From positions 1 to 28,926 of the IMG/VR virus record IMGVR_UViG_3300042691_042157: a DNA stretch of 28,926 bases; one strand, written 5' to 3'. Shown here piece by piece: positions 930 through 20,900 of the stretch. Every line of letters begins with the position of its first letter. Position 1 is the stretch's first letter. Made by a program: the position numbers and the translations under genes. This stretch comes from a virus. Under the pieces are notes generated by a model. That model did no database searches and had not been told where the DNA came from. It saw nothing but the letters and a program-made list of their open reading frames with translations.

Positions 930-1724
930 CTAACTGGTTTTGATCTGGGAGTCATGATACCATAGGGTTCGACCGTTCTTGTCAACCATATGATTGGCTC
1001 GGCCGTAGCACTGCATCCACTCATTGAATCCTCCAGCTGGGGCCTCAAATGGGTTCTCCCAGTCCTTTAGTTGACCTCCCCCAAGAACGTATGCTTCTTT
1101 AGGAAGCCTTTCGCAAAGCTCAATGATTGCGGGATTTGTTGAGAGCGCAGTACGTGCTTCCATGAAGGGATCCTGATCAGCGTGAAAGAGGATCTCAGCT
1201 CGGAGATAATTACCGATGCCGTTAAAGTACCTTTGATTCATGAGCACGAGATGGATGGGTTTATTGAACTCTCGCTTCTCTAAGTTTCCTAGGATGTTGT
1301 GCTTGAACTCGGTAAAATCGTGTACTGGACACGGTCCACGGTTTTGGGACCAGTCTTCAACTACTTTCCATCTGGCGAATCGACGTACGTCAACTAGGCA
1401 AAGAGAGCCAAAGCCTATGTAATTAAACTTGAGGTGAGTGTGGTTTGGAGGAGAGAGTCCGGCAGGAACCTCTCTCCAGTGACCCGACATTCCCATCGCG
1501 AAGGAGATCTTCATAAAGGCGGACCCTCCTTGGGTAAGGGTGAGCATGAGCTCCTTGCCCCTAGACTCAGCTGAGATCCCAAATATCTGTAGGTCAGTAG
1601 GCTGAGTGATTCCTAGTTTTCTGTTCCCCGCGCTCTCTGAAAAGGAGATGCTCGTAAAATCCTTCTCCTGGCAGACCTCGTTGATGTAGTCGGCCATTAT
1701 TTTTATCTCTGCTAGTTCTGGCAT
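930..1724 (-). CDS. Fpg/Nei-family DNA glycosylase/AP lyase with a NEIL1-like zincless finger
   Basis: 264 residues, the usual family length. The N-terminus MPELAE gives the catalytic Pro2 and Glu3 exposed after Met removal. The family landmarks GMSGHW, VDVRRFARW and the helix-two-turn-helix GIGNYLRAEIL are present in order. The family excises oxidised bases and nicks the abasic site. At the C-terminus, where bacterial Fpg/Nei have a four-cysteine zinc finger, this protein reads CYGRANHMVDKNGRTLWYHD. It keeps the finger arginine (GRT) but lacks the zinc cysteines, as in eukaryotic NEIL1 and some viral Nei proteins. It is transcribed divergently from the first array gene. Substrate preference (oxidised purine or pyrimidine) cannot be read from the sequence. 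Confidence 0.9.
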   Translation of the reverse strand: MPELAEIKIMADYINEVCQEKDFTSISFSESAGNRKLGITQPTDLQIFGISAESRGKELMLTLTQGGSAFMKISFAMGMSGHWREVPAGLSPPNHTHLKFNYIGFGSLCLVDVRRFARWKVVEDWSQNRGPCPVHDFTEFKHNILGNLEKREFNKPIHLVLMNQRYFNGIGNYLRAEILFHADQDPFMEARTALSTNPAIIELCERLPKEAYVLGGGQLKDWENPFEAPAGGFNEWMQCYGRANHMVDKNGRTLWYHDSQIKTS

Positions 1725-1759
1725 AGTGACAAAATACTAAAAAATCGAGAAAAAGTAAA

Positions 1760-1770
1760 GATAAATAACT
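1760..1770 (+). promoter_or_regulatory. T4-late-type promoter element
   Basis: GATAAATAACT begins 27 bases before the ATG at 1787. It matches the T4 late promoter core TATAAATA at all but the first base and recurs at nearly identical spacing upstream of seven other plus-strand genes here. Confidence 0.6.
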
Positions 1771-1786
1771 AAAATAACTAAAAAAA

Positions 1787-3169
1787 ATGGGATACATTTT
1801 AGATTACAAGAGATGGAGAGCGGTGTACGAGGCTGCAACTGACATCGACAAAAATGCGATAATGCAGTCGAAGATGGAACTTACTCTGAACGATGGGTTC
1901 TCCATATTAAATGACGATTACTTGATGTACGGAGCCTCGACTAGAAGCTTCTTAGAGAAAAACGCAACGAATAAAAACATTGCTACCTTAGCGACGGGGT
2001 TAAACAATCACGTAGACACATTTGGAGGTATTAAATATGTTACTGCACATTCCACTGGTCTTGATGAAATCGGTGCTGATGTTGCAATCACTGGCTTGAA
2101 CAAAGAGGGAGGAAAGCTACTTAACGCGATGTTAACCGCAGCAATAGGCCAATTTACGGGTAAAGAGTATGAATTGCTCGATCCTAATAAGATCACATGG
2201 ACCAAAGCTGCCTATACTGTGAAATTCACTCCAGATTCTGCCAGTAAAGGATATGCTCTGACTAGAGGAACCCTTAGCCTCAGCGGTTATAAAGTGGAGA
2301 ACTTGGGCGAGGAATCGTCTACTGACTACGACTCTATATTACGATTTATGAATACCTACAACCTAAAGGCGAAGGGTCACGGCTCAAGCTTAGGCCAGTA
2401 TGACGGAACTGCAGACAATTTCACGAACGGGTACTTTGACTTTGAGAAGACTCCTGGCGCAAATGGAGTGGGTGATCCTTTGATCTTCTTTGTTCCTTCA
2501 GTGACTGAAGCCGCTTCCGCGACTCGATCAGAAGAAGAGATTAAGACTGAGATCGCTGGAATCCCAGCAGAGAAGCAGCAGGCTGACGTCGGTTTCGAAA
2601 CTCTTAGCTCAAAGTTGACTGCTGCAGGAGAGACTCAAGTGGCAGCACTAGCTAAAACAATAGCGGAAAGGTTTAAAAACAAAAAGGTTGAAACTTTTGA
2701 GCTGATCTCATCTGCGAGCCCAGAGTATAATGCATTAAAAGGAGGACCTAGTAAGTTGGAAGATTATACAACAAATAGTAAACCTACTTCTGGTAAAGGC
2801 GCGCCGACTGCACCCACTACAAACGCAGCGTCTGATTATTATTATCAAAATGCTAAGCTTGCATACGATAGAGGAGTTTCCTTCATGACTGCATTGAATG
2901 CTAACTTGGCAACGTTAAAGATGCCGACGTTTACTAACTACCAGATAAATTGGCAGATAGCTAATCAAGGAGGGCCTAACAATGATGGAAGATACGTTGA
3001 TCTTAACCTTTTGACCAATGAGACAAAAGCGACGGTAAAAACTGAAACCGTTATCTCAGGATCGACGACGGCTGGTGCTACTACAGGAGGTAAGGACAAA
3101 TTGGAATGTGTAGTTTATTACTTTGCTGTACAAAGAGTGGATAAAAAAGGAAACGTTGTTACTCAATAG
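1787..3169 (+). CDS. Array protein 1: candidate capsid-targeted internal protein, 460 residues
   Basis: Starts MGYILDYKRWRAVYEAAT, a variant of the N-terminus shared by all five plus-strand array genes. The motif ends in V-Y-E followed by Ala, compatible with T4-type prohead-protease cleavage ((L/I)-x-E). The remainder is not recognisable: a beta-rich first half, a helical central stretch around residues 245-305 (SEEEIKTEIAGIPAEKQQ and following), then a region ending in a strand-rich CVVYYFAVQRV. No signal peptide or membrane segment is seen. It has a late-type promoter element upstream and faces the CAP-domain gene across a shared terminator. It is the longest array member. The reading as a head-internal or ejected protein is inference; a conventional structural protein is the main alternative. 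Confidence 0.75.
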   Translation: MGYILDYKRWRAVYEAATDIDKNAIMQSKMELTLNDGFSILNDDYLMYGASTRSFLEKNATNKNIATLATGLNNHVDTFGGIKYVTAHSTGLDEIGADVAITGLNKEGGKLLNAMLTAAIGQFTGKEYELLDPNKITWTKAAYTVKFTPDSASKGYALTRGTLSLSGYKVENLGEESSTDYDSILRFMNTYNLKAKGHGSSLGQYDGTADNFTNGYFDFEKTPGANGVGDPLIFFVPSVTEAASATRSEEEIKTEIAGIPAEKQQADVGFETLSSKLTAAGETQVAALAKTIAERFKNKKVETFELISSASPEYNALKGGPSKLEDYTTNSKPTSGKGAPTAPTTNAASDYYYQNAKLAYDRGVSFMTALNANLATLKMPTFTNYQINWQIANQGGPNNDGRYVDLNLLTNETKATVKTETVISGSTTAGATTGGKDKLECVVYYFAVQRVDKKGNVVTQ

Positions 3170-3185
3170 TATTTCTTTATAAAAG

Positions 3186-3214
3186 AAAAAAGGAGAGCAC
3201 TGCTCTCCTTTTTT
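3186..3214. terminator. Bidirectional intrinsic terminator, pair 1
   Basis: Hairpin GGAGAG/CTCTCC, extendable by GCA/TGC, flanked by six A on the left and six T on the right. It can therefore terminate transcription from both 1787 (plus) and 3755 (minus). Confidence 0.85.
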
Positions 3215-3215
3215 G

Positions 3216-3755
3216 TTATGGTACAAAAGCATATCCGCTAGTTGTTTTCCAAACAGTGGGATCGTCTAAGGCGTGCCAGGAAGCGGTCACCGAAGTCTCA
3301 CCAGTCGACTTATCGTATCTAATGACAGTGGTGACCGTCGTAGCAACATATCTATTGATTGAGATAAAGTTTCTATGAGTGTCCGATGCGATCCAACTGT
3401 CGACTATGAGCTTAGCGATGGCTGAATAGTCAGAGGCGTCAATCATCTTCTGTAGACCGTTATTTGTGCCCTTTCTAGACTCTCTATAGATGCACTCAGC
3501 GGTTGTCACCGATCCGACGTCTTTGCTGTGAGAGATCACATCAGCATCAGCATTTGCTCGAGTGACTCCATAGCTGTACTCGCGAGAGAGGCTGTCCTCA
3601 AAGTGCTGGATAGGAGTCTTTCCTAGAGAGACTAAGTAGGAGTTGATCCTTTGCCAAACTAGGGAATCTAACTTCGAAGATTCTACGTATTGAACTTGAG
3701 AGAACGACTTGAATGCTACTACTAATAGGATCAAGATGATGATTAACTTTTTCAT
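3216..3755 (-). CDS. Exported CAP/SCP-domain protein
   Basis: 179 residues. Signal peptide MKKLIIILILLVVAFKSFSQ, with the F-S-Q ending typical of Bacteroidota secreted proteins. The mature part reads as a CAP (SCP/PR-1-like) domain: an N-terminal helix with W-Q-R-I-N-S-Y and L-G-K-x-P, then DVISHS (His76), AEC (Glu87, aligning with the family's GEN[IL] Glu) and W-I-A-S-D-T-H-R-N-F (His127). The His and Glu residues correspond to those lining the CAP cavity. It probably acts in the periplasm or outside the cell. CAP proteins have varied roles (lipid binding, adhesion, rarely proteolysis), so no specific function is assigned. The gene is convergent with array protein 1. Confidence 0.75.
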   Translation of the reverse strand: MKKLIIILILLVVAFKSFSQVQYVESSKLDSLVWQRINSYLVSLGKTPIQHFEDSLSREYSYGVTRANADADVISHSKDVGSVTTAECIYRESRKGTNNGLQKMIDASDYSAIAKLIVDSWIASDTHRNFISINRYVATTVTTVIRYDKSTGETSVTASWHALDDPTVWKTTSGYAFVP

Positions 3756-3791
3756 GGCGCTTAATTTATTTGGTTAAGTCTATAATACTAA
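3756..3791. repeat. Conserved divergent-promoter block, copy 1
   Basis: Leader of the minus-strand gene. On the plus strand it reads GGCGCTTAATTTATTTGG and then a GTTAAGTCTATAATACTA segment. Four near-identical copies lie at the other divergent junctions. It holds a TATAAT-like box readable in either direction and an AAATAAATTAA element 16 bases before the minus-strand ATG. Confidence 0.7.
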
Positions 3792-3810
3792 AAAATACAC
3801 TAATAGTAAA

Positions 3811-3820
3811 GATAAATAAT
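3811..3820 (+). promoter_or_regulatory. T4-late-type promoter element
   Basis: GATAAATAAT begins 28 bases before the ATG at 3839, with no Shine-Dalgarno sequence between. Confidence 0.65.
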
Positions 3821-3838
3821 AAAAAATTCTTTTTTATA

Positions 3839-4465
3839 ATGGAATACATTTTAGACTTTAATAAGTGGACTCGACTATATGAAAATACATCGGAAGGAGG
3901 TTCTACGATAACTCCTTTAGGCGATACTGGAATCAGTGTTGTTACGTTTGGTGAAGCGACCTCATTCATGGCACCAGATACCAAGCCGTACATTCTTCTT
4001 CTTGCAGATAGTGTGCAGTTTCAAGGATTCGCAGAAAAACCTAGCGCCAAAACCGTGTCAGTTACGTTAGAACCAAATGACATGGACAAAAAGGGAGCAT
4101 TTAAGAGCGTAACCACCTCTTCTGGTGAGCCTACTAGAACACAAATACTTTATGGCGTTTCTCCTACTCTTCCGCAAGCAATGTCACTAATGGCAGAAAT
4201 CGTTAAAGCTCTTTATATTTATAATGAATCAGTAGGAGTTTCCAAGGAAAGAGTGATGCAAACCATTAAAGCGATGAAGATCATCAAGAACGATTATGCG
4301 ACTGAGGTAGCAAATAACTCTTTATTCAGCAATTTGTATAAACAAATGATTGCTGTAAGTAATGCAAGAAGTCTAACAACTCTTTCTAAGTTACTTGATG
4401 GACAAAGACCGGGCAACGAACAAAACATTCTTGACGGAGCTGTTGCTGCAGTTACATCTAAATAG
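3839..4465 (+). CDS. Array protein 2: candidate capsid-targeted internal protein, 208 residues
   Basis: The start at 3839 (MEYILDFNKWTRLYENTS) is chosen over an in-frame ATG at 3770. It restores the N-terminal motif shared by the array and leaves the promoter element outside the gene. The candidate cleavage site is L-Y-E followed by Asn. The rest resembles array protein 5 (7809) throughout: PLGDTGI versus PLGDSKI, SSGEPTRTQILYG versus SSGEPGSSQFNIYG, then a helical C-terminal half with IKAMKIIKNDYATE versus TKAIKQLRKEYQPE. The two are paralogues. It faces the exported-protein gene at 4515, whose paralogue faces array protein 5. Function is unknown; packaging in the head is inferred only from the N-terminus and the late-type promoter. 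Confidence 0.8.
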   Translation: MEYILDFNKWTRLYENTSEGGSTITPLGDTGISVVTFGEATSFMAPDTKPYILLLADSVQFQGFAEKPSAKTVSVTLEPNDMDKKGAFKSVTTSSGEPTRTQILYGVSPTLPQAMSLMAEIVKALYIYNESVGVSKERVMQTIKAMKIIKNDYATEVANNSLFSNLYKQMIAVSNARSLTTLSKLLDGQRPGNEQNILDGAVAAVTSK

Positions 4466-4484
4466 ATAAATATTAAACACAAAT

Positions 4485-4513
4485 AAAAAGCTCAGAGAAA
4501 TCTGAGCTTTTTT
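4485..4513. terminator. Bidirectional intrinsic terminator, pair 2
   Basis: Stem AAAAAGCTCAGA pairs with TCTGAGCTTTTT around a GAAA loop. A and T tracts on the two sides allow termination of both converging genes. Confidence 0.9.
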
Positions 4514-4514
4514 G

Positions 4515-4997
4515 TTATTCGTAAATCCAATATCCGATTGATCGAAGCTGATCATTTATGAAGTAGACTCTGATCTCACATTTCTTACCTGCGTTATTAG
4601 TATAAATCCAATAATCTGTCACATAGTCGTCTATCAGATTCTCAGTATCAGTACTAGTAGGATAACTAGAAATAGTTTTTGGTAATCCCCTCTGTACCTC
4701 ATCAAGAATGGCTGAGAAAGTAGAATCATTAGTTGCAGTAATAGTCATGGTCCTAGTCCCATCAATATAGATCATTTTTGTAAATCTCTTGAATCCTTCC
4801 TTTTGATAAGCATTTAATAATTCACTATGAGATCCATTCTTCACTAGAGAAAGGACTTGGCCCTGTAAATAAAGGTTATTAGTAAAAGAAGGTTCTCTAT
4901 TTAAAGAACTTACTGCTTGTGCTATATCGTTTTCGATTTGAGAGAAGACGTTAGTTGCTAAAACCAATAGAACTAAAAGAATTACTAACTTTTTCAT
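4515..4997 (-). CDS. Exported protein, 160 residues, paralogue of the gene at 8504
   Basis: Signal peptide MKKLVILLVLLVLATNVFSQ, then about 140 residues with no recognised domain. It aligns over its length with the protein at 8504: NNLYLQGQ versus NNIYLQGK, SLVKNG versus GMIKNG, DDYVTDYWIYTNNAGKKCEI versus DSYVTDSWYYTDKKGRRCEV, VYFINDQL versus AYFINNQL. The product is probably periplasmic or secreted. It has a single cysteine near the C-terminus, conserved in the paralogue. The gene is convergent with array protein 2, and the corresponding neighbours at 7809/8504 are also paralogues, so the pair was apparently copied as a unit. Confidence 0.75.
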   Translation of the reverse strand: MKKLVILLVLLVLATNVFSQIENDIAQAVSSLNREPSFTNNLYLQGQVLSLVKNGSHSELLNAYQKEGFKRFTKMIYIDGTRTMTITATNDSTFSAILDEVQRGLPKTISSYPTSTDTENLIDDYVTDYWIYTNNAGKKCEIRVYFINDQLRSIGYWIYE

Positions 4998-5036
4998 GGC
5001 GTTTAATTTATTTGGTTAAGTCTATTATACTATAAA
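4956..5036. repeat. Perfect 81-base direct repeat, copy 1
   Basis: Bases 4956-5036 are identical to 6173-6253. The repeat covers the first codons of the minus-strand signal peptide, the ATG and the divergent promoter block. It extends into coding sequence beyond what promoter function needs, which points to recent duplication or recombination. Confidence 0.9.
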
Positions 5037-5053
5037 TCTGATCCACTTTAAAA

Positions 5054-5063
5054 GATAAATAAT
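5054..5063 (+). promoter_or_regulatory. T4-late-type promoter element
   Basis: GATAAATAAT begins 28 bases before the ATG at 5082. Confidence 0.65.
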
Positions 5064-5081
5064 AAAAAATATTTTTTAGAA

Positions 5082-5699
5082 ATGGGATACATTCTAGACT
5101 TTAATAAGTGGGTAAGAGTATACGAAGCTGAAGGAACAATGACAGCATTAGATACTCTACAGAAGCTTGCTGATAAGTACGGCGAGACTTTATATACGTC
5201 GGCTGACGGATTGACTAAGTCTACAGCAAGGTTCAAGATAACTGAAGGAGCAGCCGGCATTGATGATCCGGTAGTAATCGCAAACTTTACTGAACCTACT
5301 GCAGGTCAGCTTTATTTAAAGGCGACGATCGACGGAACCAAGCTGATCGAAGGAAACGTTACACTGACTGCGGACAAGATCACAAACGTGGCTGGTGTGG
5401 CACTTGACCAGTATGATTACAGTGACGGTCAAGGAGCGGTTGAAGTAACTAAAGTTTCTCATGACCTGTCAGATAAGTATCGACCGTTTTCTCCTATTGC
5501 TGGAGTAATTGCTCAGGCAATAAGTGACATGCCAAAGGTAAGAATGAAGTTTGCAGAGCTCGGTGGAGGCCCTGGTGCTGATGAGTCCTGGATAATTACA
5601 AGTACATTGGTAAGAGCTCACGAAGTGGATTTCGGACGAAGCAATAAGAAGTATTATGATGAGACTGCGGACAGGATGACTCCTACTCAAAAGCCTTAA
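5082..5699 (+). CDS. Array protein 3: candidate capsid-targeted internal protein, 205 residues
   Basis: Starts MGYILDFNKWVRVYEAEG, with a candidate prohead-protease site V-Y-E followed by Ala. The remainder is unrecognised. Residues about 45-125 look beta-rich (repeated short strands such as LYLKATIDGTKLIEGNVTLT). The C-terminal part has a helix (SPIAGVIAQAISDM) and a lysine/aspartate-rich tail ending in Pro. No signal peptide or membrane segment is visible. The N-terminal motif places it in the array family, but the body does not obviously match the other members. It is convergent with the exported protein at 5762. Confidence 0.75.
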   Translation: MGYILDFNKWVRVYEAEGTMTALDTLQKLADKYGETLYTSADGLTKSTARFKITEGAAGIDDPVVIANFTEPTAGQLYLKATIDGTKLIEGNVTLTADKITNVAGVALDQYDYSDGQGAVEVTKVSHDLSDKYRPFSPIAGVIAQAISDMPKVRMKFAELGGGPGADESWIITSTLVRAHEVDFGRSNKKYYDETADRMTPTQKP

Positions 5700-5720
5700 T
5701 TAGAAACTATATTAAACCAC

Positions 5721-5748
5721 AAAAGCTCCTCATTGAGGAGCTTTTTTT
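5721..5748. terminator. Bidirectional intrinsic terminator, pair 3
   Basis: Stem AAAAGCTCCT/AGGAGCTTTT with a short loop (CATTG), followed by further T. A and T tracts are on opposite sides, between converging genes. Confidence 0.9.
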
Positions 5749-5761
5749 GTATCTGGAGAAA

Positions 5762-6214
5762 TTATGCGGGTTGAACTATCGTAAACTTTGTGATCAAATC
5801 AACAATGGTCTGATCGGCACGTTCATCATAGTATTGATATAAGAATATGTTTGATCCGAAATTAGTATTTAGCGAGATTGAAGTAGTCACAACAAGCTCG
5901 CCGGTCTCAAGATCAGTATCGTATGAATAGATTGAATACACACCTGGAGAAACTTGAGTAAAATTGATCCTTACTTCGCTCACAAATTTTCCATTTCGAT
6001 AAAAGCTTGATGTGCTATCGCTAAAGTTAATGATGTATCGACAGTCAGTTGATCGTGGACTCTGTTTTAGGTCAGGCTCATCAAGAACGCTTTGGAAGTC
6101 GGTTCGACCGATGTCAATGTAGGACTGTGCTTCATTAACATCGATTGTAATTGTTTGAGAAAAGGCTTTAACTGCTAAAACCAATAGAACTAAAAGAATT
6201 ACTAACTTTTTCAT
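5762..6214 (-). CDS. Exported protein, 150 residues, unknown function
   Basis: Signal peptide MKKLVILLVLLVLAVKAFSQ, whose coding DNA is largely identical to that of the gene at 4515 through the 81-base repeat. The mature part is about 130 residues, mostly predicted strands (YIINFSDSTSSFYRNG, EVRINFTQVSPGVYSIYSY, ELVVTTSISLNTN), and does not match the other exported proteins. It suggests a small beta-sandwich or barrel in the periplasm. I recognise no family. It is convergent with array protein 3, so the same signal and promoter precede an unrelated mature domain. Confidence 0.7.
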   Translation of the reverse strand: MKKLVILLVLLVLAVKAFSQTITIDVNEAQSYIDIGRTDFQSVLDEPDLKQSPRSTDCRYIINFSDSTSSFYRNGKFVSEVRINFTQVSPGVYSIYSYDTDLETGELVVTTSISLNTNFGSNIFLYQYYDERADQTIVDLITKFTIVQPA

Positions 6215-6253
6215 GGCGTTTAATTTATTTGGTTAAGTCTATTATACTATAAA
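6173..6253. repeat. Perfect 81-base direct repeat, copy 2
   Basis: Identical to 4956-5036; contains the signal-peptide start and divergent promoter block of the gene at 5762. The next base differs between copies, so the repeat boundary on that side is exact. Confidence 0.9.
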
Positions 6254-6269
6254 AAATCTCTCTTTTAAA

Positions 6270-6279
6270 AATAAATAAT
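6270..6279 (+). promoter_or_regulatory. T4-late-type promoter element, variant
   Basis: AATAAATAAT begins 27 bases before the ATG at 6297. The first base differs from the G in the other copies. Confidence 0.6.
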
Positions 6280-6296
6280 AAAAAGAAAAAGAAAAG

Positions 6297-7394
6297 ATGG
6301 GATATATCTTAAACTACTCAAATTGGAGAAGAATATTTGAGGCTGAAGAAGAAAAGCAAGTTAGCATAGTTTTTGCATCGACTTCTATAGAAAAAATGCC
6401 TAATTCCACAAACGTAAAGAATAATGGACTCGTAACTCCTACTGATACTACGACATATCCAGACATTGAAAAAACTGTATTTTCAGCAAAGGTTTCAGAT
6501 TGGCTAAAGGGTCAGAAAGGCACTTCTGAGGGTGCAGCAAACACTCTATTGAGCGCATTTAAACCTGTTCGTACGACTTCTACTGGGATGGACGTTTTGA
6601 AGGTAGGATCCTTAGGCGGAGACTATACACAGGGGGGAGTGACTCCTTCAGGAGGAATACAGTTCATGTCAAATAGTACTGATGTGATCGAAGCGTCACA
6701 CAATGGGTTACTAGTTTTAGCAAGAGCTTTAGAGACATGGATCGATGCTGGAAAGCCTGCAGGTGTTAAATTTATGCTTAAGATGGGGCAAGCAAAACGC
6801 ATGGGAAGTTTCATAGACTTAGGTAACTTATCTAAATTAGATCATTCTTTGGGAACATGGGAGTCATACATGGCAGCCTCTCTAATACCCGATGGAATGT
6901 TTGCAGATAACACTTGGAAAGAAACATTCGATGGAAAAACCGCGGAGGAAAGAGCGACTGAATTGAGTACTTTTTTTTCCAATGGATGGGCGACTAGTGT
7001 TATAAAGCTTATGTTTCCGTTTACCACTACCACTGCTCCAGCTGGAGTAGACTATTCTAAGTGGATAACTAATTACTTTGGAAAAGTCACACAATTGGGA
7101 GAGTATGACACAGTTTCAGGATTACAAAAGGACTATGAGACCATGTTTATTGCCTGTAGAGATCACTATGTGAAAGAGATGAAGTCCATGTATGCTAACC
7201 TGCTTAAGATAATCGGAGGAACTAGCATTCCAGAAATAGACGAAAAGATAACTTCTATTTCTGCAAAAACTGCTACTCGAATAATAAGAAAGGCTAATCC
7301 TATCATGACAAAAGCATCAGGGTCAGGTTCAGGATCCAGCTCTACGACGAAGGCAGTTACTAGTCAGTATGAGTTAGGCCAAGCTAAAAACTAA
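6297..7394 (+). CDS. Array protein 4: candidate capsid-targeted internal protein, 365 residues
   Basis: Starts MGYILNYSNWRRIFEAEE, the most divergent of the five array N-termini but keeping Y-I-L-x-[FY]-x-x-W-x-R and a candidate cleavage site I-F-E followed by Ala. The body is unrecognised. It has a hydrophobic helix near residue 140 (NGLLVLARALETWIDAG), a helical stretch around 275-325, and a Gly/Ser-rich linker near the end (ASGSGSGSSSTT) before a short tail. No signal peptide is present. It is convergent with the small lipoprotein gene at 7444. Function unknown; the virion-internal role is inferred from the N-terminus and promoter. Confidence 0.75.
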   Translation: MGYILNYSNWRRIFEAEEEKQVSIVFASTSIEKMPNSTNVKNNGLVTPTDTTTYPDIEKTVFSAKVSDWLKGQKGTSEGAANTLLSAFKPVRTTSTGMDVLKVGSLGGDYTQGGVTPSGGIQFMSNSTDVIEASHNGLLVLARALETWIDAGKPAGVKFMLKMGQAKRMGSFIDLGNLSKLDHSLGTWESYMAASLIPDGMFADNTWKETFDGKTAEERATELSTFFSNGWATSVIKLMFPFTTTTAPAGVDYSKWITNYFGKVTQLGEYDTVSGLQKDYETMFIACRDHYVKEMKSMYANLLKIIGGTSIPEIDEKITSISAKTATRIIRKANPIMTKASGSGSGSSSTTKAVTSQYELGQAKN

Positions 7395-7410
7395 ATTAAA
7401 ATCAATAAAG

Positions 7411-7443
7411 AATAGCTAGATCAAGAAGTCTAGCTATTTTTGT
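7411..7443. terminator. Bidirectional intrinsic terminator, pair 4
   Basis: Stem AATAGCTAGA/TCTAGCTATT with loop TCAAGAAG, followed by T residues; lies between converging genes. The stem is AT-richer than in the other pairs. Confidence 0.8.
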
Positions 7444-7725
7444 TTATTTAGATTCAAACCAGAGAAACTTATAATTCTCATTCAATACTACGTATCTAGT
7501 TTCTTCTACAAGATAAACTAGAGTCCCTTTAGTTGGACTATATCGATATTCTAAAGAATCTGACTCAGTGACTGGATAACTCTCAACACCCGCTAGAGTA
7601 TCATTGGGATTATATCCAAAGTAAACTACCTCAAATCCATTTCGATCTAGATTAGACGCAGTCTGCATGGTTTTACAAGAAACTAGAAGTATGCTGCTAA
7701 ATAGGATCACTGCTAGATTTTTCAT
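7444..7725 (-). CDS. Small predicted lipoprotein, 93 residues
   Basis: Starts MKNLAVILFSSILLVSCKTM: a basic start, a hydrophobic stretch, and the lipobox L-V-S-C, so Cys17 should be lipidated after signal peptidase II cleavage. The mature 77 residues have no recognised domain and contain two tyrosine-rich, strand-like parts (FEVVYFGYN, GTLVYLVEETRYVVLNENY). It is the only lipoprotein among the five exported array proteins, the others having ordinary Sec signals. It is convergent with array protein 4. Phage lipoproteins sometimes act in superinfection exclusion, but nothing here shows that. Confidence 0.7.
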   Translation of the reverse strand: MKNLAVILFSSILLVSCKTMQTASNLDRNGFEVVYFGYNPNDTLAGVESYPVTESDSLEYRYSPTKGTLVYLVEETRYVVLNENYKFLWFESK

Positions 7726-7762
7726 GGCGTTTAATTTATTTGGTTAAGTCTATAATACTATA
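7726..7762. repeat. Conserved divergent-promoter block, copy 4
   Basis: Same GGCGTTTAATTTATTTGG and GTTAAGTCTATAATACTAT arrangement as the other junctions, here preceding a lipoprotein gene whose own coding sequence is different. Confidence 0.7.
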
Positions 7763-7780
7763 AAAATTCTTCTTTTTAAA

Positions 7781-7790
7781 GATAAATAAT
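7781..7790 (+). promoter_or_regulatory. T4-late-type promoter element
   Basis: GATAAATAAT begins 28 bases before the ATG at 7809. Confidence 0.65.
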
Positions 7791-7808
7791 AAAAAAATTA
7801 TTTTTATA

Positions 7809-8459
7809 ATGATATATATCTTAGACTTTAACAAGTGGACTAGATTATATGAGCAACAATCAGCAAAACCAGTAACTAATGCTCAATATGAAATAGATGC
7901 AGTAGGAAACGTTAAACTAGTTCCATTAGGCGATAGTAAAATAGCAGCAGCATATTTAAAAAAGGAAGGTGCTGGAACTAGTTCAGGTGAACCAGGATCG
8001 AGTCAGTTTAATATATATGGAAACACTGGAGAGTTTACGTTTCAAAAGAACTCTAAAGGAACTACTATGATGGAATTAGAGTTTAGGAATACTAAAGAAG
8101 GCCCTGGAGTATATGAAAGAGTTTACAAGCCAGCTGACGCTACTCAACCTGAATACACAATGATTACTTCAGGTCTAGCATTAACTGTCGAACACACAGT
8201 TAGAGTAATAAAAAGAATGGCTGAAATGTTGAATGATGGACAATCTGTAACTGCAGATAACGTTATTCGGCTAACAAAAGCGATTAAACAACTTAGAAAA
8301 GAATATCAGCCTGAATGGGATAGAAACCCTTTAATGAAAGCGTTACTTAGAAATATGGTAGAAATTAGAAATATTGGAGCGCAAACTTTATATACTAAAT
8401 ACGGTATGAAAGAGCCAATTATTGCAGATGGAATAAAGAAAGGTCTTGATGCTGTATAA
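7809..8459 (+). CDS. Array protein 5: candidate capsid-targeted internal protein, 216 residues, paralogue of array protein 2
   Basis: Starts MIYILDFNKWTRLYEQQS, almost the same first 15 residues as array protein 2, with a candidate cleavage site L-Y-E followed by Gln. It has a beta-rich first half (VKLVPLGDSKIAAAYL, QFNIYGNTGEFTFQ) and a basic helical second half (IRLTKAIKQLRKEYQ), matching array protein 2 segment by segment. Bases are more AT-biased at third positions than in the fibre or tail-tube genes. It faces the exported gene at 8504, the paralogue of the gene facing array protein 2. Function unknown. Confidence 0.8.
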   Translation: MIYILDFNKWTRLYEQQSAKPVTNAQYEIDAVGNVKLVPLGDSKIAAAYLKKEGAGTSSGEPGSSQFNIYGNTGEFTFQKNSKGTTMMELEFRNTKEGPGVYERVYKPADATQPEYTMITSGLALTVEHTVRVIKRMAEMLNDGQSVTADNVIRLTKAIKQLRKEYQPEWDRNPLMKALLRNMVEIRNIGAQTLYTKYGMKEPIIADGIKKGLDAV

Positions 8460-8479
8460 TTTTTATGAAGAGGTCAAAG

Positions 8480-8503
8480 AAAAAGGGGCGATTGCCCCTT
8501 TTT
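8480..8503. terminator. Bidirectional intrinsic terminator, pair 5
   Basis: Stem AAAAAGGGGC/GCCCCTTTTT with loop GATT. It abuts the stop codon of the minus-strand gene and can serve both converging genes. Confidence 0.9.
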
Positions 8504-8989
8504 TTATTTCACTTCAATCCGATATAACATGTTAACTAGCTGATTATTTATGAAGTATGCGGTCACTTCGCATCGTCTGCCTTTTTTATCAGTATAGTAC
8601 CAACTGTCAGTTACATAGCTATCAAATAATTCTTCATATTCAGTTTGACTCGGTCGAGTTTGAATATTACTTGGTAAATTTTTTCTAACCTCATTAATCA
8701 TCTCTAGAAAAGCGTTGTCTGATTTAATTTCAAAGGTATTCCACTCGCCAGCCTCATCGTGAACTTTAATACATCTAATAAAACCTGGCTCATTGTAAAC
8801 CTTTAGTAAATCTAAGGACTTTCCATTCTTAATCATCCCCATAAACTTTCCTTGTAAATAGATATTATTTACTTGAGATTCCTGTCTTTCTATTTGTGAT
8901 AGTGCTTCACTAATTACTGGGTCGACTGTTTGAGAGAAGGTTTTAGTCACTAGAACCAATAGAACTAAGATGATGATTAATTTTTTCAT
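8504..8989 (-). CDS. Exported protein, 161 residues, paralogue of the gene at 4515
   Basis: Signal peptide MKKLIIILVLLVLVTKTFSQ. The mature part is collinear with the 4515 protein: an N-terminal helical segment with NNIYLQGK, K-N-G, GFIRCIKV, a central NAFLEMINEVRKNLP, and the best-conserved C-terminal block YVTDSWYYTDKKGRRCEV followed by YFINNQL. One cysteine near the C-terminus is shared; this copy has a second (GFIRC). No known domain. It is probably periplasmic or secreted. Its convergent partner at 7809 is likewise the paralogue of the 4515 gene's partner. Confidence 0.75.
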   Translation of the reverse strand: MKKLIIILVLLVLVTKTFSQTVDPVISEALSQIERQESQVNNIYLQGKFMGMIKNGKSLDLLKVYNEPGFIRCIKVHDEAGEWNTFEIKSDNAFLEMINEVRKNLPSNIQTRPSQTEYEELFDSYVTDSWYYTDKKGRRCEVTAYFINNQLVNMLYRIEVK

Positions 8990-9026
8990 GGCGTTTAATT
9001 TAATTAGTTAAGTCTATAATACTACA
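8990..9026. repeat. Conserved divergent-promoter block, copy 5
   Basis: The most diverged copy (AATTAATTAGTTAAGTC replaces the usual AATTTATTTGGTTAAGTC). It marks the end of the array: the plus-strand side here drives the 9073 operon rather than another Y-I-L-D-F gene. Confidence 0.65.
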
Positions 9027-9045
9027 AAACTTCTTAACTATTAAA

Positions 9046-9055
9046 GATAAATAAT
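9046..9055 (+). promoter_or_regulatory. T4-late-type promoter element
   Basis: GATAAATAAT begins 27 bases before the ATG at 9073. Nearer the gene there is also AAAAAGGC, a possible weak ribosome binding site. Confidence 0.65.
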
Positions 9056-9072
9056 AAAAAAATAAAAAGGCA

Positions 9073-9312
9073 ATGAGTAATCCAGTTATGAATTACAACC
9101 AGTTCATGGCAGCATTTAAAAAGGCTGAGTCTGGCTATAGAGGAAAAGGCAACACTGCCGCTCACGATAGAAATGGTTCCATGAAGATCAACCAAGGACT
9201 AGTTGAAGGACCAGTTAAGGGTAAAGGAACTCCACACATCGATAAGTATACTAAGCAGTACATGACTACCGCTAAGAATAAGAGCATCGTAGGAGGAGGA
9301 AAACGTAAATAA
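9073..9312 (+). CDS. Small basic protein, 79 residues, possible head-internal protein
   Basis: Starts MSNPVMNYNQFMAAFKKAES; an internal Met at residue 6 (MNYNQF) is a second possible start. The protein is lysine/glycine-rich and basic, ends GGGKRK, and has no signal peptide or membrane segment. The N-terminal N-Y-N-Q-F-x-x-x-F-K-K-A-E resembles, loosely, the T4 internal-protein targeting peptide (Y-Q-E-F-I-A-E-A). It is the first gene of a plus-strand operon that uses the last array promoter, followed after 9 bases by the next gene. Function unknown. Confidence 0.6.
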   Translation: MSNPVMNYNQFMAAFKKAESGYRGKGNTAAHDRNGSMKINQGLVEGPVKGKGTPHIDKYTKQYMTTAKNKSIVGGGKRK

Positions 9313-14085: not shown

Positions 14086-17000
14086 ATGGGGGTTAGCCAC
14101 GTTTATCCTACAATAGATTTTACCCAGATTGATTATGCAAAGATTCCGGTCGGTGCGTATCTCATAGGGTTTGACTCAAGTAATGCTGGAAAGCTTTCCA
14201 AGATCGATAATTCTGGGACAATTACTGTGATAGAAGGAGTAGGAGGAGGCAGCCCAATCACAATTGAAGACGAAGGGTCAGTCATAACGTCGGCACTTGC
14301 GTCAATTGATTTTGTGGGAGCAGGAGTGACTGCAACTAATGTAGGGTCGGCTGTGACTGTGACCGTTCCGGGAGGAGGAACTAGTGGAAGTTCTGGCACC
14401 AGCGGTAGCTCAGGAACGAGTGGAGCGGCGGGCGCGATCGGTCCTGCCGGAACTAGCGGAAGCTCGGGAACTTCTGGATCGAGTGGAACGAGTGGAGCAG
14501 TGGGTCCAGCAGGAACTTCTGGATCGAGTGGAACGAGTGGAATCAATGGACTTACGTCTGGGCTGATATTCTATTTTAACTCATCAGTCACCCAGACGCC
14601 CTTAACATTCAAACAGATAGAGAGAGTTCCCACTAGTGCAGCACAGCAATCAACTGCGGTGACTCTGACTGGATCCACTAACAATCAGTTAGTCGAAACC
14701 TTCATAACTGATGCGACCGGATTGGGAGCAGGGGTTATTCCTGGTGGAGTACAAAGGTTTACTATTCATTTCCTAAAGGGCGCGAGCTCTCACAACATAG
14801 AAGCATACGCTCAGCTGGAATTAGCTAACTCCGCAGGAGTAGGATACGGCTCACCGGTAAACAGTAATACTGAAGTAGTCGGGTGGGTCAATGTCACAAC
14901 CCCAGACACAGTAGAAGTGGACATAACAATTCCGACGACTACTATAAATACGACAGATAGAATGATCATTAGGGTCTATGCTAATAACTTAGATGGACCT
15001 TCTCGAACAGTAAATTTCATAACAGAAGGAACTGCAAACTATTCATTCGTGGCGTCGACATTCGGTAATAATACAACTTCAGGAACTAGCGGCTCATCTG
15101 GAACTAGCGGCTCATCTGGATCTAGTGGATCTTCAGGCAGCTCAGGTACTTCTGGATCTAGTGGATCTTCAGGCAGCTCAGGTACTTCTGGATCTAGTGG
15201 ATCTTCAGGCAGCTCAGGTACTTCTGGATCTAGTGGATCTTCAGGCAGCTCAGGAACTTCAGGCTCTAGTGGTACCAGCGGATCGTCAGGTAGCTCTGGC
15301 TCATCTGGTACATCAGGTACGTCTGGTTCTTCAGGTTCAAGCGGAACAAGTGGTACTTCAGGAAGCTCCGGTAGCTCAGGAACTTCAGGTTCATCTGGAT
15401 CTTCAGGAACTTCGGGAACTAGTGGAACCTCAGGATCAAGCGGTAGTAGTGGAACGTCAGGTTCCAGTGGAACTAGCGGAACGTCTGGTTCTTCTGGAAC
15501 AAGTGGTACTTCAGGATCAAGTGGAACAAGCGGCAGTAGCGGAACTGCTGGATCTTCTGGGACCAGCGGCAGTAGTGGAACTTCTGGGTCATCTGGATCG
15601 AGCGGTACTAGTGGATCATCTGGCACGTCAGGAAGTTCGGGGTCCAGTGGCACTTCAGGTTCATCAGGAACTAGTGGAACTTCAGGATCTTCAGGAACCA
15701 GTGGAACAAGCGGTTCTTCTGGAACGTCTGGATCGAGTGGTACTAGTGGTTCTTCAGGAACGAGTGGAAGTTCAGGAACTTCAGGCTCTAGTGGATCATC
15801 GGGGACTTCAGGCTCTAGTGGATCAAGCGGCACGAGTGGAATAAACGGGTTTAGTACAGGCTTAATATTTTATTTTAACTCGTCAGTCACTCAAACTCCA
15901 CTCTCCTTTAAAGAAATAGAAAAGGATCCGACTGGAGCGGCTCAACAGACAACTACCCTGACTCTGACGGCATCGACTAATAATCAATTAGTAGAAACCT
16001 TCATAACTGACTCGACTGGATTGGGAGTCAGTGTCATTCCGGGAGGAGTTCAGAGATTTACTGTACACTTCTTAAAGGGAAACAGTGGAGATAACATAGA
16101 AGTGTATTCTCAAATAGAGTTGGCTGATTCTACTGGTACGGGATACGGCTCACCGGTAAACAGTAACGTTGAAGTAGTCGGATGGGTCAATTTGACTACA
16201 CCGGACACAGTAGAGGTGGACGTAACTATTCCGACAACGACAATCAACACAACAGACCGAATGATCGTTAGGCTCTATGCTAATAACTTGGATGCCGGAT
16301 CTAGGACTTTAAGCTTTGTGACTGAAGGAACCACAAATTATTCATTCGTGGCTTCGACGTTTGGTAACAACAACACGTCAGGAACCAGTGGTAGTAGCGG
16401 TTCATCCGGATCAAGCGGAACGAGTGGTAGCTCAGGAACTTCAGGCTCAAGCGGAAGTTCAGGTACCAGTGGATCTAGTGGAACTTCAGGATCTAGTGGA
16501 ACATCAGGATTGGCAGGAACTTCGGGTTCTAGCGGTACATCAGGTGCGAGTGGAGCCCAAGGAAACGACGGTTCCAATAGCGGAAGGTGGTATTTTGACG
16601 ATAGCACAGTAGCACCAAATAATCCAACATCAACGTTTTTTCTAACGGATAATGTCAATATTACTTCTATTCAGGACGTATCTATAAGTAGAGACGATAT
16701 CAATGCAACAGATTATTATGATTGGTTTAATTACTTGGTAACTAAATTTGCCTTTATTGGAGATGCATTTTTACAAATCACCGAGGTTGCCAGTAATAAC
16801 ATAATAGGAATTTATACTATCTCTTCGATAACTGATCAAACTAATTATTTTGATCTAGCTGTTTCTTTCTCTACTGGTACAGGAACTTTGACCGATGGAA
16901 ATGCTTATACGATTTCATGGATCTATAACGGGAATGATGGAACAAGTGGGACATCAGGAAGTAGTGGAACTTCGGGATCTAGTGGAACTTCGGGATCTAG

Positions 17001-17652
17001 TGGAACATCAGGATCTAGTGGAACATCAGGATTGGCAGGAACTTCCGGCTCAAGCGGTACTTCAGGATCAAGCGGAACGTCCGGATCAAGCGGAACTAGT
17101 GGTTCTTCGGGAACAAGTGGAAGCTCAGGAACTTCAGGTTCTTCTGGAACAAGCGGAGTAGGTACGTCAGGTAGTTCAGGTACGAGTGGAACCTCTGCAT
17201 CCGGCGGGTGGACTACTATTTGGAAATCAGCAGATGAGGCAGTTACCGCCGACACTGTTCTCAGTGACGACGCTTTCTTAAAGTTCACGACCGTTGCTAA
17301 TACTCAATACTTGTTTAGATTTGCAATAATGTCAAATACTAATGCTACTGCCGATTTTAAGTATGCGTTAAACCATAGCGGAACCACAACCGCGACCCGA
17401 TGGCAACCCGTAAGAGCAACGTCTGCTGGTGTCTATCCTATGATAGGATCAATCAGTCAGACAACTGCAAATGGTACAACTATTGCGGTCGCAGGAGCAT
17501 CTGCTGGAGACATACCGATCTATATACAAGGATACATACAAGTAGGAGCGGCGGGAGGTATACTGGCTTTCCAATGGGCGCAAAACACCTCTAATGCTGG
17601 CGCGACTACCGTTTACGAAGGATCCTATGTAGAATATCAAATAGTTATATGA
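14086..17652 (+). CDS. Tail-fibre/adhesin-like protein with Gly-Thr-Ser/Gly-Ser-Ser triplet tracts, 1188 residues
   Basis: N-terminal domain (about 1-96), then alternating low-complexity tracts and folded modules. Tracts are almost entirely Gly-x-Ser triplets (GTS and GSS, a few GTA, GLA, GPA): about 97-151, 332-585, 765-825 and 951-1040. The collagen-like Gly-X-Y spacing suggests an extended, perhaps trimeric, shaft without proline. Two near-copy modules (about 152-331 and 585-764) each start near GLIFYFNSSVTQTPL and end FVASTFGNN. A third module covers about 832-950. The C-terminal domain (about 1041-1188, GGWTTIWKSADEAV to VEYQIVI) looks like a beta-sandwich and may be the receptor-binding tip. 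Driven by a late-type promoter; the stop overlaps the next ATG (ATGA). A fibre or head-decoration role is inferred. Confidence 0.8.
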   Translation: MGVSHVYPTIDFTQIDYAKIPVGAYLIGFDSSNAGKLSKIDNSGTITVIEGVGGGSPITIEDEGSVITSALASIDFVGAGVTATNVGSAVTVTVPGGGTSGSSGTSGSSGTSGAAGAIGPAGTSGSSGTSGSSGTSGAVGPAGTSGSSGTSGINGLTSGLIFYFNSSVTQTPLTFKQIERVPTSAAQQSTAVTLTGSTNNQLVETFITDATGLGAGVIPGGVQRFTIHFLKGASSHNIEAYAQLELANSAGVGYGSPVNSNTEVVGWVNVTTPDTVEVDITIPTTTINTTDRMIIRVYANNLDGPSRTVNFITEGTANYSFVASTFGNNTTSGTSGSSGTSGSSGSSGSSGSSGTSGSSGSSGSSGTSGSSGSSGSSGTSGSSGSSGSSGTSGSSGTSGSSGSSGSSGTSGTSGSSGSSGTSGTSGSSGSSGTSGSSGSSGTSGTSGTSGSSGSSGTSGSSGTSGTSGSSGTSGTSGSSGTSGSSGTAGSSGTSGSSGTSGSSGSSGTSGSSGTSGSSGSSGTSGSSGTSGTSGSSGTSGTSGSSGTSGSSGTSGSSGTSGSSGTSGSSGSSGTSGSSGSSGTSGINGFSTGLIFYFNSSVTQTPLSFKEIEKDPTGAAQQTTTLTLTASTNNQLVETFITDSTGLGVSVIPGGVQRFTVHFLKGNSGDNIEVYSQIELADSTGTGYGSPVNSNVEVVGWVNLTTPDTVEVDVTIPTTTINTTDRMIVRLYANNLDAGSRTLSFVTEGTTNYSFVASTFGNNNTSGTSGSSGSSGSSGTSGSSGTSGSSGSSGTSGSSGTSGSSGTSGLAGTSGSSGTSGASGAQGNDGSNSGRWYFDDSTVAPNNPTSTFFLTDNVNITSIQDVSISRDDINATDYYDWFNYLVTKFAFIGDAFLQITEVASNNIIGIYTISSITDQTNYFDLAVSFSTGTGTLTDGNAYTISWIYNGNDGTSGTSGSSGTSGSSGTSGSSGTSGSSGTSGLAGTSGSSGTSGSSGTSGSSGTSGSSGTSGSSGTSGSSGTSGVGTSGSSGTSGTSASGGWTTIWKSADEAVTADTVLSDDAFLKFTTVANTQYLFRFAIMSNTNATADFKYALNHSGTTTATRWQPVRATSAGVYPMIGSISQTTANGTTIAVAGASAGDIPIYIQGYIQVGAAGGILAFQWAQNTSNAGATTVYEGSYVEYQIVI
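14539..15078 (+). repeat. Duplicated fibre module, copy A
   Basis: Codes for a module of about 180 residues repeated at 15838-16377. Several base-level identities persist (for example GGATACGGCTCACCGGTAAA in both), so the duplication is fairly recent or kept alike by recombination. Confidence 0.9.
15079..15840 (+). repeat. Longest Gly-Thr-Ser/Gly-Ser-Ser coding tract
   Basis: About 254 residues made of GTS and GSS triplets with one GTA. Codons for Ser, Thr and Gly are mixed freely, so the conservation is at protein level. The exception is a perfect 36-base tandem repeat from 15121 (three identical units and a fourth partly altered). Confidence 0.95.
15121..15264 (+). repeat. 36-base tandem repeat inside the fibre tract, four units
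   Basis: Units at 15121, 15157 and 15193 are identical over 36 bases; the one at 15229 diverges near its end. In-frame (12 codons), so unit number could change by slippage without breaking the gene. Confidence 0.9.
15838..16377 (+). repeat. Duplicated fibre module, copy B
   Basis: Second copy of the module at 14539-15078, with protein differences scattered (FKEIEKDPTGAAQQTT against FKQIERVPTSAAQQST). Confidence 0.9.
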
Positions 17653-17949: not shown

Positions 17950-20900
17950 ATGATAAGAGTAAGAGCACACACTTGCTACCTGGGAAGCACCGGGTACGCG
18001 CATCACGCAAGATCCTTCTTTAGAGAATTATCAAGATGGGTGGACCTTAGGGTCAGAAACTTTACTTGGGACGAATCTCCATCGTACTTGAATTCCACTG
18101 ACTTTGAAATAATCGACACAATAACTCTATCAAACTCAGATGGGTCCTTTTCTGACTATCCGATATCTCATTCCTTTCCTGACCTGCCTTGGAAACCTAG
18201 TGAAGGGTTCGAACCAGAAGTTGACCTTGTGTTAATGGATTCCAATCATCACTATTTTTACGATGAATATTCTGCTCCAATAAAGATAGCATACACCGTT
18301 TGGGAAAGCACTGAGATTGAGCAGGGATTCTTTGAACAGTTGCTCAAGTTCGACTATCTTTGGGTGGTAAGTGAATGGCATCGAGAAGTAGTCATTCGTC
18401 AGGGATATCCTGAACAAAGGGTCTTTATAGTGAGGGAGGGAGTAGAAGATTCTCTATACTTTAAACAAGATTCGAGAAAAGATAAAGAACGCTTTGAATT
18501 CATGTTCTTTGGAAGATGGGACTATCGTAAGTCTGTTCCTGAAATAATTAGATCTTTCCTAAAGGCATTTCCAAGGGAAGAGAACGATCGTGTGTCTTTG
18601 ATATTAAGCGCAGACAACCTATACTCAGTCGACCGTCTTAACTCTACTGAAGAACGATTAGCTCACTATGGATTTGAGGATGATAGAATAAAGATAGAAC
18701 ACTTTCCAAGTAGAGAAAAGTACGAGGATTACTTAAAGAACGGTCACGTATTAGTGAGTTGCGCTAGAAGTGAGGGATGGAACATTCCTCTAATAGAAGC
18801 AATGGTTGCCGGAACTCCTGTGATCTATTCTGACTGGGGAGCACAATTGGAATTCGCAAAAGGTAAGGGAAATCCTGTAAAGATCAAGGAGGAGTTACCT
18901 GCAAATATCGGTGCAGAACTGGGATTTGCAGGAAGCGTTCCCGGACTCTATGCTGAACCTGATTTCAATGATCTGGTTGAGGTAATGAGAGACTGTTATG
19001 ATAATTGGGAAGAAAAGAAAAGGCTAGCTAAGACAGAATCGGATGAGATTTATCAGGAATTCAATTGGGAAAGGATTGGTGAGGACGGATTCAATGCGAT
19101 AAAAAAGATCATTCCTGCGGAAGTTGAGAAAAGGACTGGCGAGTGTGCAGTGGTGATGTCCCATGCCGATACTCGAGAAAAGGTAGCACTATTGAGAAGA
19201 TGTGTGGTTGCTCTAAAGAATCAAGGACTCTCAACGGTGGTCGCATCTCACATAAGCTTACCTGAAGAGATAGTTAATATCGCAGATTACTGTGTGATAG
19301 AGAGTGACAATCCAGTAATCTATTCAGAAGAATATCATGAGTATTCGAACACTGTCCCTATCCACTACCTTAGGTATCCAGAGTTTGACTTAAGTTATTC
19401 TTTTGATTACAATCACGGATATGCCGCTCTAAGGCTGATAAGAATCGGGTCAGGGCTGGCTGAGAACATGGGTTACGAAAAGGTTCACTTTGTGAATTAC
19501 GATTATGTGATGGACGATCGTTCAACTCTTGAGGAAAATTCTAAAGAGTTAGACGGTGAAGAACATGATGTTGTTGTCTATCGATGGAATCCCGAAGACT
19601 CAATAAATTCAGGTCTATTCTCAGCAAAGGCACGAACTATCAATCGAGTACTGTACTCGTTTGATTCCAAGTCTAGTTACTTTAGGTATGAAGGAAAGGT
19701 GATATTGGAGGACGTGTTGTACTCCACCTTTAATGCTGCAGGTCTATCGATGAAGATAAAAGGCATTGAACGGGCCAAGAAGAATAATTTCTTGAATGGA
19801 GTAGTCCTACAGACATATCCACAGATAATCACAAAATCAGGTCAATCTAGCTACCTATACTTGGGTGAGTCAAATTCAGAGTTTTTTATCTGCGCAATGG
19901 GTAGCCCAGGAGAGCCATTGTCTCTTGAGATAGAGAACGAATCGTTCATTGTGAGTGAATATCCTATGCTCTTTATTAGGATACCTGCTAACCTATTGGA
20001 GTCAGGGTTCAGAGTTAATTTGCCTGAACTAGGAATATTTAAAGAGTACGACAATTCGACCAAAAGAGCATTTTGTGAAATTAGGAATCCTGAACTCATA
20101 AAGGAGCTTAATATTAACACTGGAATCAGATACAACATTAATTTCATAAGCGGTCCGTTCGTTGAAGTCATGGGTAGAAGTTCAGACCAGTTTTTAGTGG
20201 AATTCATCGATCAGGATGCTGGAAAAACTGTGTACTTCACGATAATAAAGACTGAACACTGGGCTAGATGTAGTAGAAAGTATTTCGTGAATTGGAAGAT
20301 CAGAATAACTAATTTATCTACTGGAGAGATCCATGAGGAAGATTTTAATCTTGAGAAGAAACGAGTTCTAGTATCGATAGATTCTAGCGCACTTGGTGAC
20401 TCGTTATCGTGGTTTCCTCACATTGATGAGTTTAGAAAAGAAAAAGGATGTGAAGTATACGTGAGCACATTCAAGAACGATCTCTTTATAGAAAACTATC
20501 CTGAACTAAATTTTATCACTCCAGGAACGGCGGTCAAGGACGTCTATGCTAATTATACGATAGGCTGGTTCTACAAGCAGGATGGAGACGTGAATTATGA
20601 GCATCATCCTAGAGACTTTAGAAAGCTCCCAATGCAAGCAACAACTTGTGACATATTAGGACTACCTCACTCTAACATAAGACCAAAGCTTAGCGTGCCT
20701 AACGAGCCTAGGCCGATCGAAGAAGAGTACGTGTGTATCGCCATTCACTCGACCGCTCAGGCAAAGTACTGGAATAACCCTACTGGTTGGCAAGAATTGA
20801 CTGACTATTTCTTAAATCGTGGAATAAAAGTCGTTGTGATTAGCCTAGAAGGAAACGGTTACATGCAAAACTATCATCCAGTCGGCGTGATGGAGAAGAG

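Follow-up and report, generated by a model that had tools for sequence, protein, structure and literature searches.

A shared N-terminal tag on unrelated proteins of a T4-like phage fragment: a candidate capsid-targeting propeptide in a variable island of paired genes

Why should five proteins that otherwise have little in common begin with the same 15 residues? The question is raised by a stretch of viral DNA of 28,926 nucleotides (IMG/VR record IMGVR_UViG_3300042691_042157, positions 1 to 28,926; called the window here), a fragment of a large T4-like phage. Five of its plus-strand genes, p1 to p5 (Table 1), start with a tag of the form M-x-Y-I-L-[DN]-[FY]-x-x-W-x-x-[LIV]-[YF]-E (for example, MGYILDFNKWVRVYEA). 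Judging from sequence comparisons, we think it likely that these first ~15 residues are a T4-type capsid-targeting propeptide on exchangeable cargo, encoded in a locus of packaged/exported gene pairs. An earlier note on this DNA had proposed capsid targeting, and the proposal is partly supported overall: the grammar of the tag, late-type promoters, protease and capsid genes in relatives and the unrelated protein bodies speak for it.

All five genes are real open frames, and the motif that the earlier note had placed at their starts is indeed common to them. M1, Y3, I4, L5, W10 and E15 are identical in 5/5 tags, position 7 is F or Y, and position 13 is L, V or I. The codons at Y3, I4 and E15 differ in 60% of the gene pairs in the window despite encoding the same residue; the tag is therefore conserved at the protein level, and hitchhiking without selection is unlikely. 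Past the tag, only the bodies of p2 and p5 can be aligned (27% identity and E 7e-17 when the tag is included, 23% and E 1e-7 when it is left out), in agreement with the earlier description of mostly different bodies and one pair of paralogues. Nor does the motif belong to a folded domain: in p1, the one modelled member, it has a predicted local distance difference test score (pLDDT) of ~28 and lies outside the folded domain. Together with the unrelated bodies, this rules out one folded domain common to all members. The AlphaFold model of p5 has a mean pLDDT of 43.

The tag is not confined to the window. Viral contigs were scanned for a late promoter element (ATAAATAA) followed by ATG and a loose version of the tag that ended at the Trp and did not demand the Glu, which returned 78 stretches; with the window and its relatives, these yielded 54 distinct tagged proteins. 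[LIVM]-x-E follows the Trp within 8 residues in 49/54, compared with a mean of 6.1 (maximum 14) in 1000 shuffles and 3.7 at random internal positions. The Glu of these 49 lies at W+5 in 43 proteins, W+6 in three, W+3 in two and W+8 in one, and the P3 residue of the site is L in 27, V in 13 and I in 9; the other five proteins look like chance hits. The bodies form 32 clusters, about 28 of them unrelated once chance hits are dropped, so that the search of related phage genomes suggested in the earlier note finds the motif in about 50 distinct proteins from ~28 unrelated body families. In a wider set of 54 proteins, for which the Glu was part of the selection, W10 and E15 alone are invariant out of 1427 columns; the fair test of the Glu is the scan that did not demand it. 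A hidden Markov model (HMM) of the tag gave 20–40 bits for 17 tagged proteins of relatives, whereas none of 3475 decoy segments exceeded 7.0 bits; with the shuffles, this rules out chance resemblance.

The arrangement of conserved residues resembles that of a known head propeptide. The first ten residues of T4 IPIII are enough for incorporation, with mutations assigning targeting to residues 4 and 7 and processing to residues 8 and 10, and gp21 cleaves after L/I-x-E (PMC9026906). T4 IPII and IPIII start MKTYQEFIAEA, that is, Y4-x-x-F7 followed by I8-x-E10, and the window tags read [FY]7-x-x-W10, two residues, then [LIV]13-x-E15, with aromatics at i and i+3 in 5/5. The W+3 variants (MSNILNFKNWLNES) are without the two extra residues and have the T4 spacing.

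Head genes of the T4 type were found in the relatives. Of the longer relatives the nearest is G001 (78 kb, contig of L006), most of which around the tagged genes is in synteny with the window. Its gene for a gp21-family protease (PF03420) is the immediate neighbour of one for a gp23-like capsid protein; the protease is present in 7/14 tag-carrying contigs, many of them fragments. W-x-x-[LIVM]-x-E occurs in the first 40 residues of six of the 90 open reading frames (ORFs) of G001: four tagged proteins, the capsid protein (TWKPILEGYG) and the protease (NDWVLIVENV), with internal segments matching at 1.1%. Capsid proteins of relatives and T4 gp23 (NKWKPLLEGEG) keep the W-to-Glu spacing, which is one residue longer in Sphingomonas phage PAU and Chryseobacterium phage MA9V-1. 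The pattern in capsid protein and protease is possibly a shared core-binding motif, and as a link of the tag to the head we regard it as suggestive only. The G001 capsid protein is closest to those of the 462 kb metagenomic phage LR756500, Prevotella Lak phages and other huge metagenomic phages, followed by Tenacibaculum, Chryseobacterium, Flavobacterium and Sphingomonas phages.

G005 (20 vs 2.2), G010 (17 vs 2.4), G004, G001 and LR756500 (26 vs 6.0) are strongly enriched for a looser grammar ([FYW]xx[FYW], 0–3 residues, [LIVM]xE, within 20 residues), and the ORFs of G005 and G010 that fit it have a late element far oftener than other ORFs (Fisher p 2e-4 and 6e-7). PAU and MA9V-1 show no such enrichment, so not all of the wider group uses the exact aromatic-x-x-aromatic form. 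UvsX of the window also fits (FNKFNDLLE, conserved in relatives), probably by coincidence with its own helix; single matches therefore prove nothing. A second shared N-terminus, M[SA]FINWGxEsxEQ, was seen on proteins of 68 to 930 residues, mostly behind late elements.

The setting of the five genes is as regular as their tags. The late element stands 26–27 bases upstream of 5/5 tagged starts, and 22–29 bases before the sheath, tube, protease and two baseplate-like genes of G001 and the window; it was part of the scan pattern, and the independent counts are those from the window and whole contigs. The earlier note had seen the row of five tagged genes and overlooked both the five minus-strand genes that alternate with them and the modular island that they form. 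Each tagged gene converges on a minus-strand gene with a signal peptide, with a stem-loop terminator between the two (5/5 convergent gaps) and divergent promoters outside. Divergent gaps 2–6 each have a sigma-70-like promoter on the minus strand, in matching positions, although such matches are not above chance overall; the timing of the two promoters we infer. Four of the minus-strand genes encode an N-terminal signal peptide that reads MKKLVILLVLLVLAxxxFSQ, the fifth a lipoprotein-type signal, and these partners are predicted to be exported into the envelope of the infected cell.

With the right flanking gene as bait we gathered 80 loci, 52 of them with both flanks (redundant contigs counted). 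Between the flanks, 34 of these loci have no tagged gene, 8 have one, another 8 have two and 2 have three, compared with five in the window, and the 34 loci without a tagged gene mostly consist of just an 82–106 bp promoter gap. Most units are convergent, a plus-strand tagged gene facing a minus-strand signal-peptide or membrane gene; a few adjoin the right flank without a partner, and in L122 the partner is on the other side. A minus-strand gene with a signal-peptide-like start lies downstream of 31/52 tagged genes with a readable neighbour, and such starts occur in roughly 9–11% of ORFs of these genomes. Body and partner families co-cluster: 51 pairs do so where 11.5 are expected, and none of 2000 permutations gave more than 37, in a comparison uncorrected for phylogeny. 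The units p2-n2 and p5-n5 are copies of one another, p3-n3 recurs in G001 and L165 (p3 against the 226-residue G001 protein: hhalign probability 96.5, tag included in the comparison), and p1-type genes are mostly paired with CAP-like secreted proteins. Partner families comprise CAP, rhomboid and others without an assigned domain; the Pfam CAP match was obtained with four relatives in the n1 alignment, not with n1 itself. The right flanking gene was not found in bacterial genomes and therefore gives no prophage or host clue.

What the tag is attached to can be recognised only in part. Pfam and PHROGs gave at most weak matches for the five window proteins, a search for relatives of p4 found none, and p1 and p5 had no match in a phage collection that included T4. 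The C-terminal third of p1 gave a fair-confidence model with blocks of pLDDT 73–89, which matches PA0833 (E 7.6e-4), MotB, OprF and OmpA with probability about 1; the p1 family profile found no match among PDB sequences, and the proposed OmpA-like peptidoglycan-binding domain is assigned on fold only. Tagged proteins of relatives include three with peptidoglycan-binding and VanY or GH19-like domains (Table 1), a further peptidoglycan-binding protein (L178), a thioredoxin-like protein (L135) and a P-loop kinase-like protein (G001 29277, weak match), and some have PHROG matches to endolysins and tape-measure proteins. A cell-wall theme is thus visible in the recognisable cargo and partners.

How such a system would work can be outlined. 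Late in infection the tag would bind the prohead core, most likely via L5, [FY]7 and W10, and otherwise unrelated proteins would thereby be built into the prohead. A gp21-like protease would cut after Glu15 at (L/I/V)-x-E and free the mature cargo, which would exit the head together with the DNA when the next cell is infected. In each two-gene unit the tagged gene would be the late half, and the opposite-strand half encodes an exported protein (signal-peptide or membrane). As a rule it is whole units, bounded by shared divergent promoters, that come and go, are copied and change places. A more far-reaching and rather doubtful idea is that each convergent pair is a functional unit, in which the head-packaged protein acts in the envelope of the next host and the exported partner is its cognate modulator, immunity or superinfection-exclusion factor, making the island a set of exchangeable effector/partner modules. 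No description of such a packaged/exported pairing was found in the literature.

Several observations weigh against capsid targeting. The window is a fragment that stops short of the protease and capsid region and contains neither gene; with the tag HMM the capsid protein scores no higher than decoys; and UvsX, which fits the loose grammar, is not a head protein. Several cargoes are cell-wall enzymes or binders of a kind also typical of tails or lysis, and a protein of the G005 baseplate region (44797) starts tag-like (MSFEAYLRNWLRLNEA). The latter two points feed the main rival, an address for tail or envelope, in which the tag would be an assembly peptide for virion proteins that act on the cell wall, docking them on the tail, the baseplate or the surface of the virion, and (L/I/V)-x-E would serve in binding instead of being cut. 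The tail-tube gene lies next to the island, and a large part of the cargo that can be recognised is related to the cell wall (the probable OmpA-like domain of p1, the VanY, peptidoglycan-binding and GH19 domains, the endolysin and tape-measure matches), so a tail or envelope role is conceivable. However, the Glu and a hydrophobic P3 are kept while their distance from the Trp varies, as for a protease site, kinase- and thioredoxin-like bodies are tagged as well, and the grammar agrees with that of T4 head propeptides. We judge this alternative improbable.

The same cell-wall theme and the exported partners would suit an amphipathic helix that directs late proteins to the membrane or the periplasm of the host, where they would serve in lysis or envelope functions, outside the virion. 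This leaves Glu15 and the variable spacing unexplained, the tag has no hydrophobic signal whereas the partners use ordinary signal peptides, and kinase-like cargo fits poorly; it seems very unlikely to us. The common N-terminus might instead be the functionless coding edge of a recombining promoter/start cassette, as the divergent gaps are conserved in the window, the units shuffle and the common stretch begins at the start codon. The codon differences at Y3, I4 and E15 argue against this, as do tags outside the island (G001 29277, G004), and there is hardly any room left for it. If capsid targeting is right, a 15-residue label would make it possible to predict, from sequence alone, virion proteins among the uncharacterised proteins of these large phages; the Trp tag would point to several in each genome and the looser grammar to perhaps 15–20. 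A packaging signal of this kind would then be known beyond the classical T4 phages, dozens of orphan genes would gain a connection with host take-over or with entry through the cell wall, and the locus would stand out as a modular one in which packaged and exported proteins are passed on together.

The remaining genes of the window include UvsX, a DnaB-type helicase, SbcC/SbcD-like proteins, thymidylate synthase, dCMP deaminase, a tail fibre and a tail-tube-like protein. The tail fibre gene (14086–17652) has long GTSGSSGTSG repeats and duplicated globular segments, and 17950–21831 encodes a multidomain protein of 1293 residues with an N-terminal glycosyltransferase and a methyltransferase-like stretch near the C-terminus (PHROG matches).

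Table 1. Coordinates of the tagged genes, their partners, regulatory elements and related features in the window and in other phages.
Feature	Position	Strand	Details
p1, 460 residues	1787..3169	+	tag 1787-1831, MGYILDYKRWRAVYE; probable C-terminal OmpA-like peptidoglycan-binding domain
p2, 208 residues	3839..4465	+	tag 3839-3883, MEYILDFNKWTRLYE; paralogue of p5
p3, 205 residues	5082..5699	+	tag 5082-5126, MGYILDFNKWVRVYE; remote relative of G001 226-residue protein
p4, 365 residues	6297..7394	+	tag 6297-6341, MGYILNYSNWRRIFE
p5, 216 residues	7809..8459	+	tag 7809-7853, MIYILDFNKWTRLYE; paralogue of p2
n1, partner of p1	3216..3755	-	signal peptide; CAP-like secreted protein family
n2, partner of p2	4515..4997	-	signal peptide; 42% identical to n5
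n3, partner of p3	5762..6214	-	signal peptide
n4, partner of p4	7444..7725	-	lipoprotein-type signal (LVSC)
n5, partner of p5	8504..8989	-	signal peptide
Left fixed flank of island	930..1724	-	264 residues, MPELAEIK...
Right fixed flank of island	9073..9312	+	79 residues, MSNPVMNYNQFM..., late element at 9047
Divergent promoter gap 1	1725..1786		late element ATAAATAA at 1761
Divergent promoter gap 2	3756..3838		late element 3812 (+); TTTACT-17-TATTAT on - strand
Divergent promoter gap 3	4998..5081		late element 5055 (+); TTTAAA-17-TATAAT on - strand
Divergent promoter gap 4	6215..6296		late element 6271 (+); TTTAAA-17-TATAAT on - strand
Divergent promoter gap 5	7726..7808		late element 7782 (+); TTTAAA-17-TATTAT on - strand
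Divergent promoter gap 6	8990..9072		late element 9047 (+); TTAATA-17-TATTAT on - strand
Stem-loop terminator p1/n1	3186..3214		
Stem-loop terminator p2/n2	4485..4512		matches on both strands
Stem-loop terminator p3/n3	5721..5745		
Stem-loop terminator p4/n4	7408..7441		matches on both strands
Stem-loop terminator p5/n5	8478..8505		
Conserved gene, 83 residues	9322..9573	+	N-terminus MKRAITSFQRYALLEKK fits looser grammar
UvsX	27198-28400		N-terminus fits looser grammar
G001 capsid protein	L018:2645-4312		W-x-x-[LIVM]-x-E spacing
G001 prohead protease	L018:4342-6309 (G001 64342-66309)		W-x-x-[LIVM]-x-E spacing
Tagged proteins, VanY + peptidoglycan-binding (+ GH19-like)	L102:4477-5979; L109:1199-2887		
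Tagged protein, peptidoglycan-binding + GH19-like	L097:359-1912		
M[SA]FINWGxEsxEQ family	G005 3348, 14327, 59641; G010 40049, 100473, 107990; G001 61260		
PAU MKTLxxLYE region	PAU record 100248-113735 (L026, L071)		gp142, gp154 annotated internal capsid protein
LR756500 tagged series	L042-L065, e.g. 313382-317720		

Several phage systems offer comparisons. In the phiKZ-like phage SPN3US, head proteins are trimmed after Glu by the prohead protease (gp245) and many are ejected (PMC5694885). As described, propeptides of phiKZ-like phages differ from the tag in being mostly long with an A-x-E site. Two sets in related phages are closer: about 20 proteins of PAU start MK[ST][LI]xxL[YF]E, many of them around the portal, protease, scaffold and capsid genes, and some 24 proteins of LR756500 start M[KE][YF]IxxYxxF[LIV]xE, with bodies that include leucine-rich repeats and a DUF2201 metallopeptidase/VWA protein. 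As in the window, unrelated proteins share a short N-terminus ending in hydrophobic-x-Glu (MKTLxxLYE in PAU, MKYIxEYEEFLLEA in LR756500); these tags differ in sequence and have no Trp, and the PAU set falls outside the aromatic-x-x-aromatic grammar. PAU offers a cultured parallel to the window tag. The papers found on PAU-like phages contain no virion mass spectrometry; naming PAU gp144 an ADP-ribosyltransferase was a guess without Pfam support.

T4-type phages reportedly also have mobile regulatory cassettes (Arbiol 2010; early-promoter stem-loops or PeSLs, Comeau 2014), which are intergenic and apparently mediate the shuffling of variable genes. Like these, the island ties intergenic regulatory stretches to shuffled variable genes, but here a divergent promoter gap with two conserved N-termini lies outside and a terminator inside each convergent pair; promoter and terminator are at opposite ends of each gene.

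The closest likeness is to the internal proteins of T4. IPI, IPII and IPIII (MKTYQEFIAE before the gp21 cut, A after it) carry a short N-terminal label on unrelated, variable proteins, with aromatic-x-x-aromatic followed by hydrophobic-x-Glu, and are encoded by late genes in phages with a gp21-family protease and a gp23-like capsid protein, present here in the relatives. T-even internal proteins are highly diverse, with the targeting sequence alone conserved (PMC3012670), and the bodies behind the tag are equally diverse. Unlike the T4 label, the tag is longer, with L5, an invariant Trp and usually two extra residues before the cleavage-type site, and V at P3 goes beyond the strict L/I rule of gp21. 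It is found on many more and larger proteins, whose cargo includes cell-wall binders and hydrolases and whose genes stand in convergent pairs with signal-peptide genes; packaging of these proteins is a prediction. The locus would thus be a variant of the T4 capsid-targeting/internal-protein system, set in a hypervariable island of paired genes.

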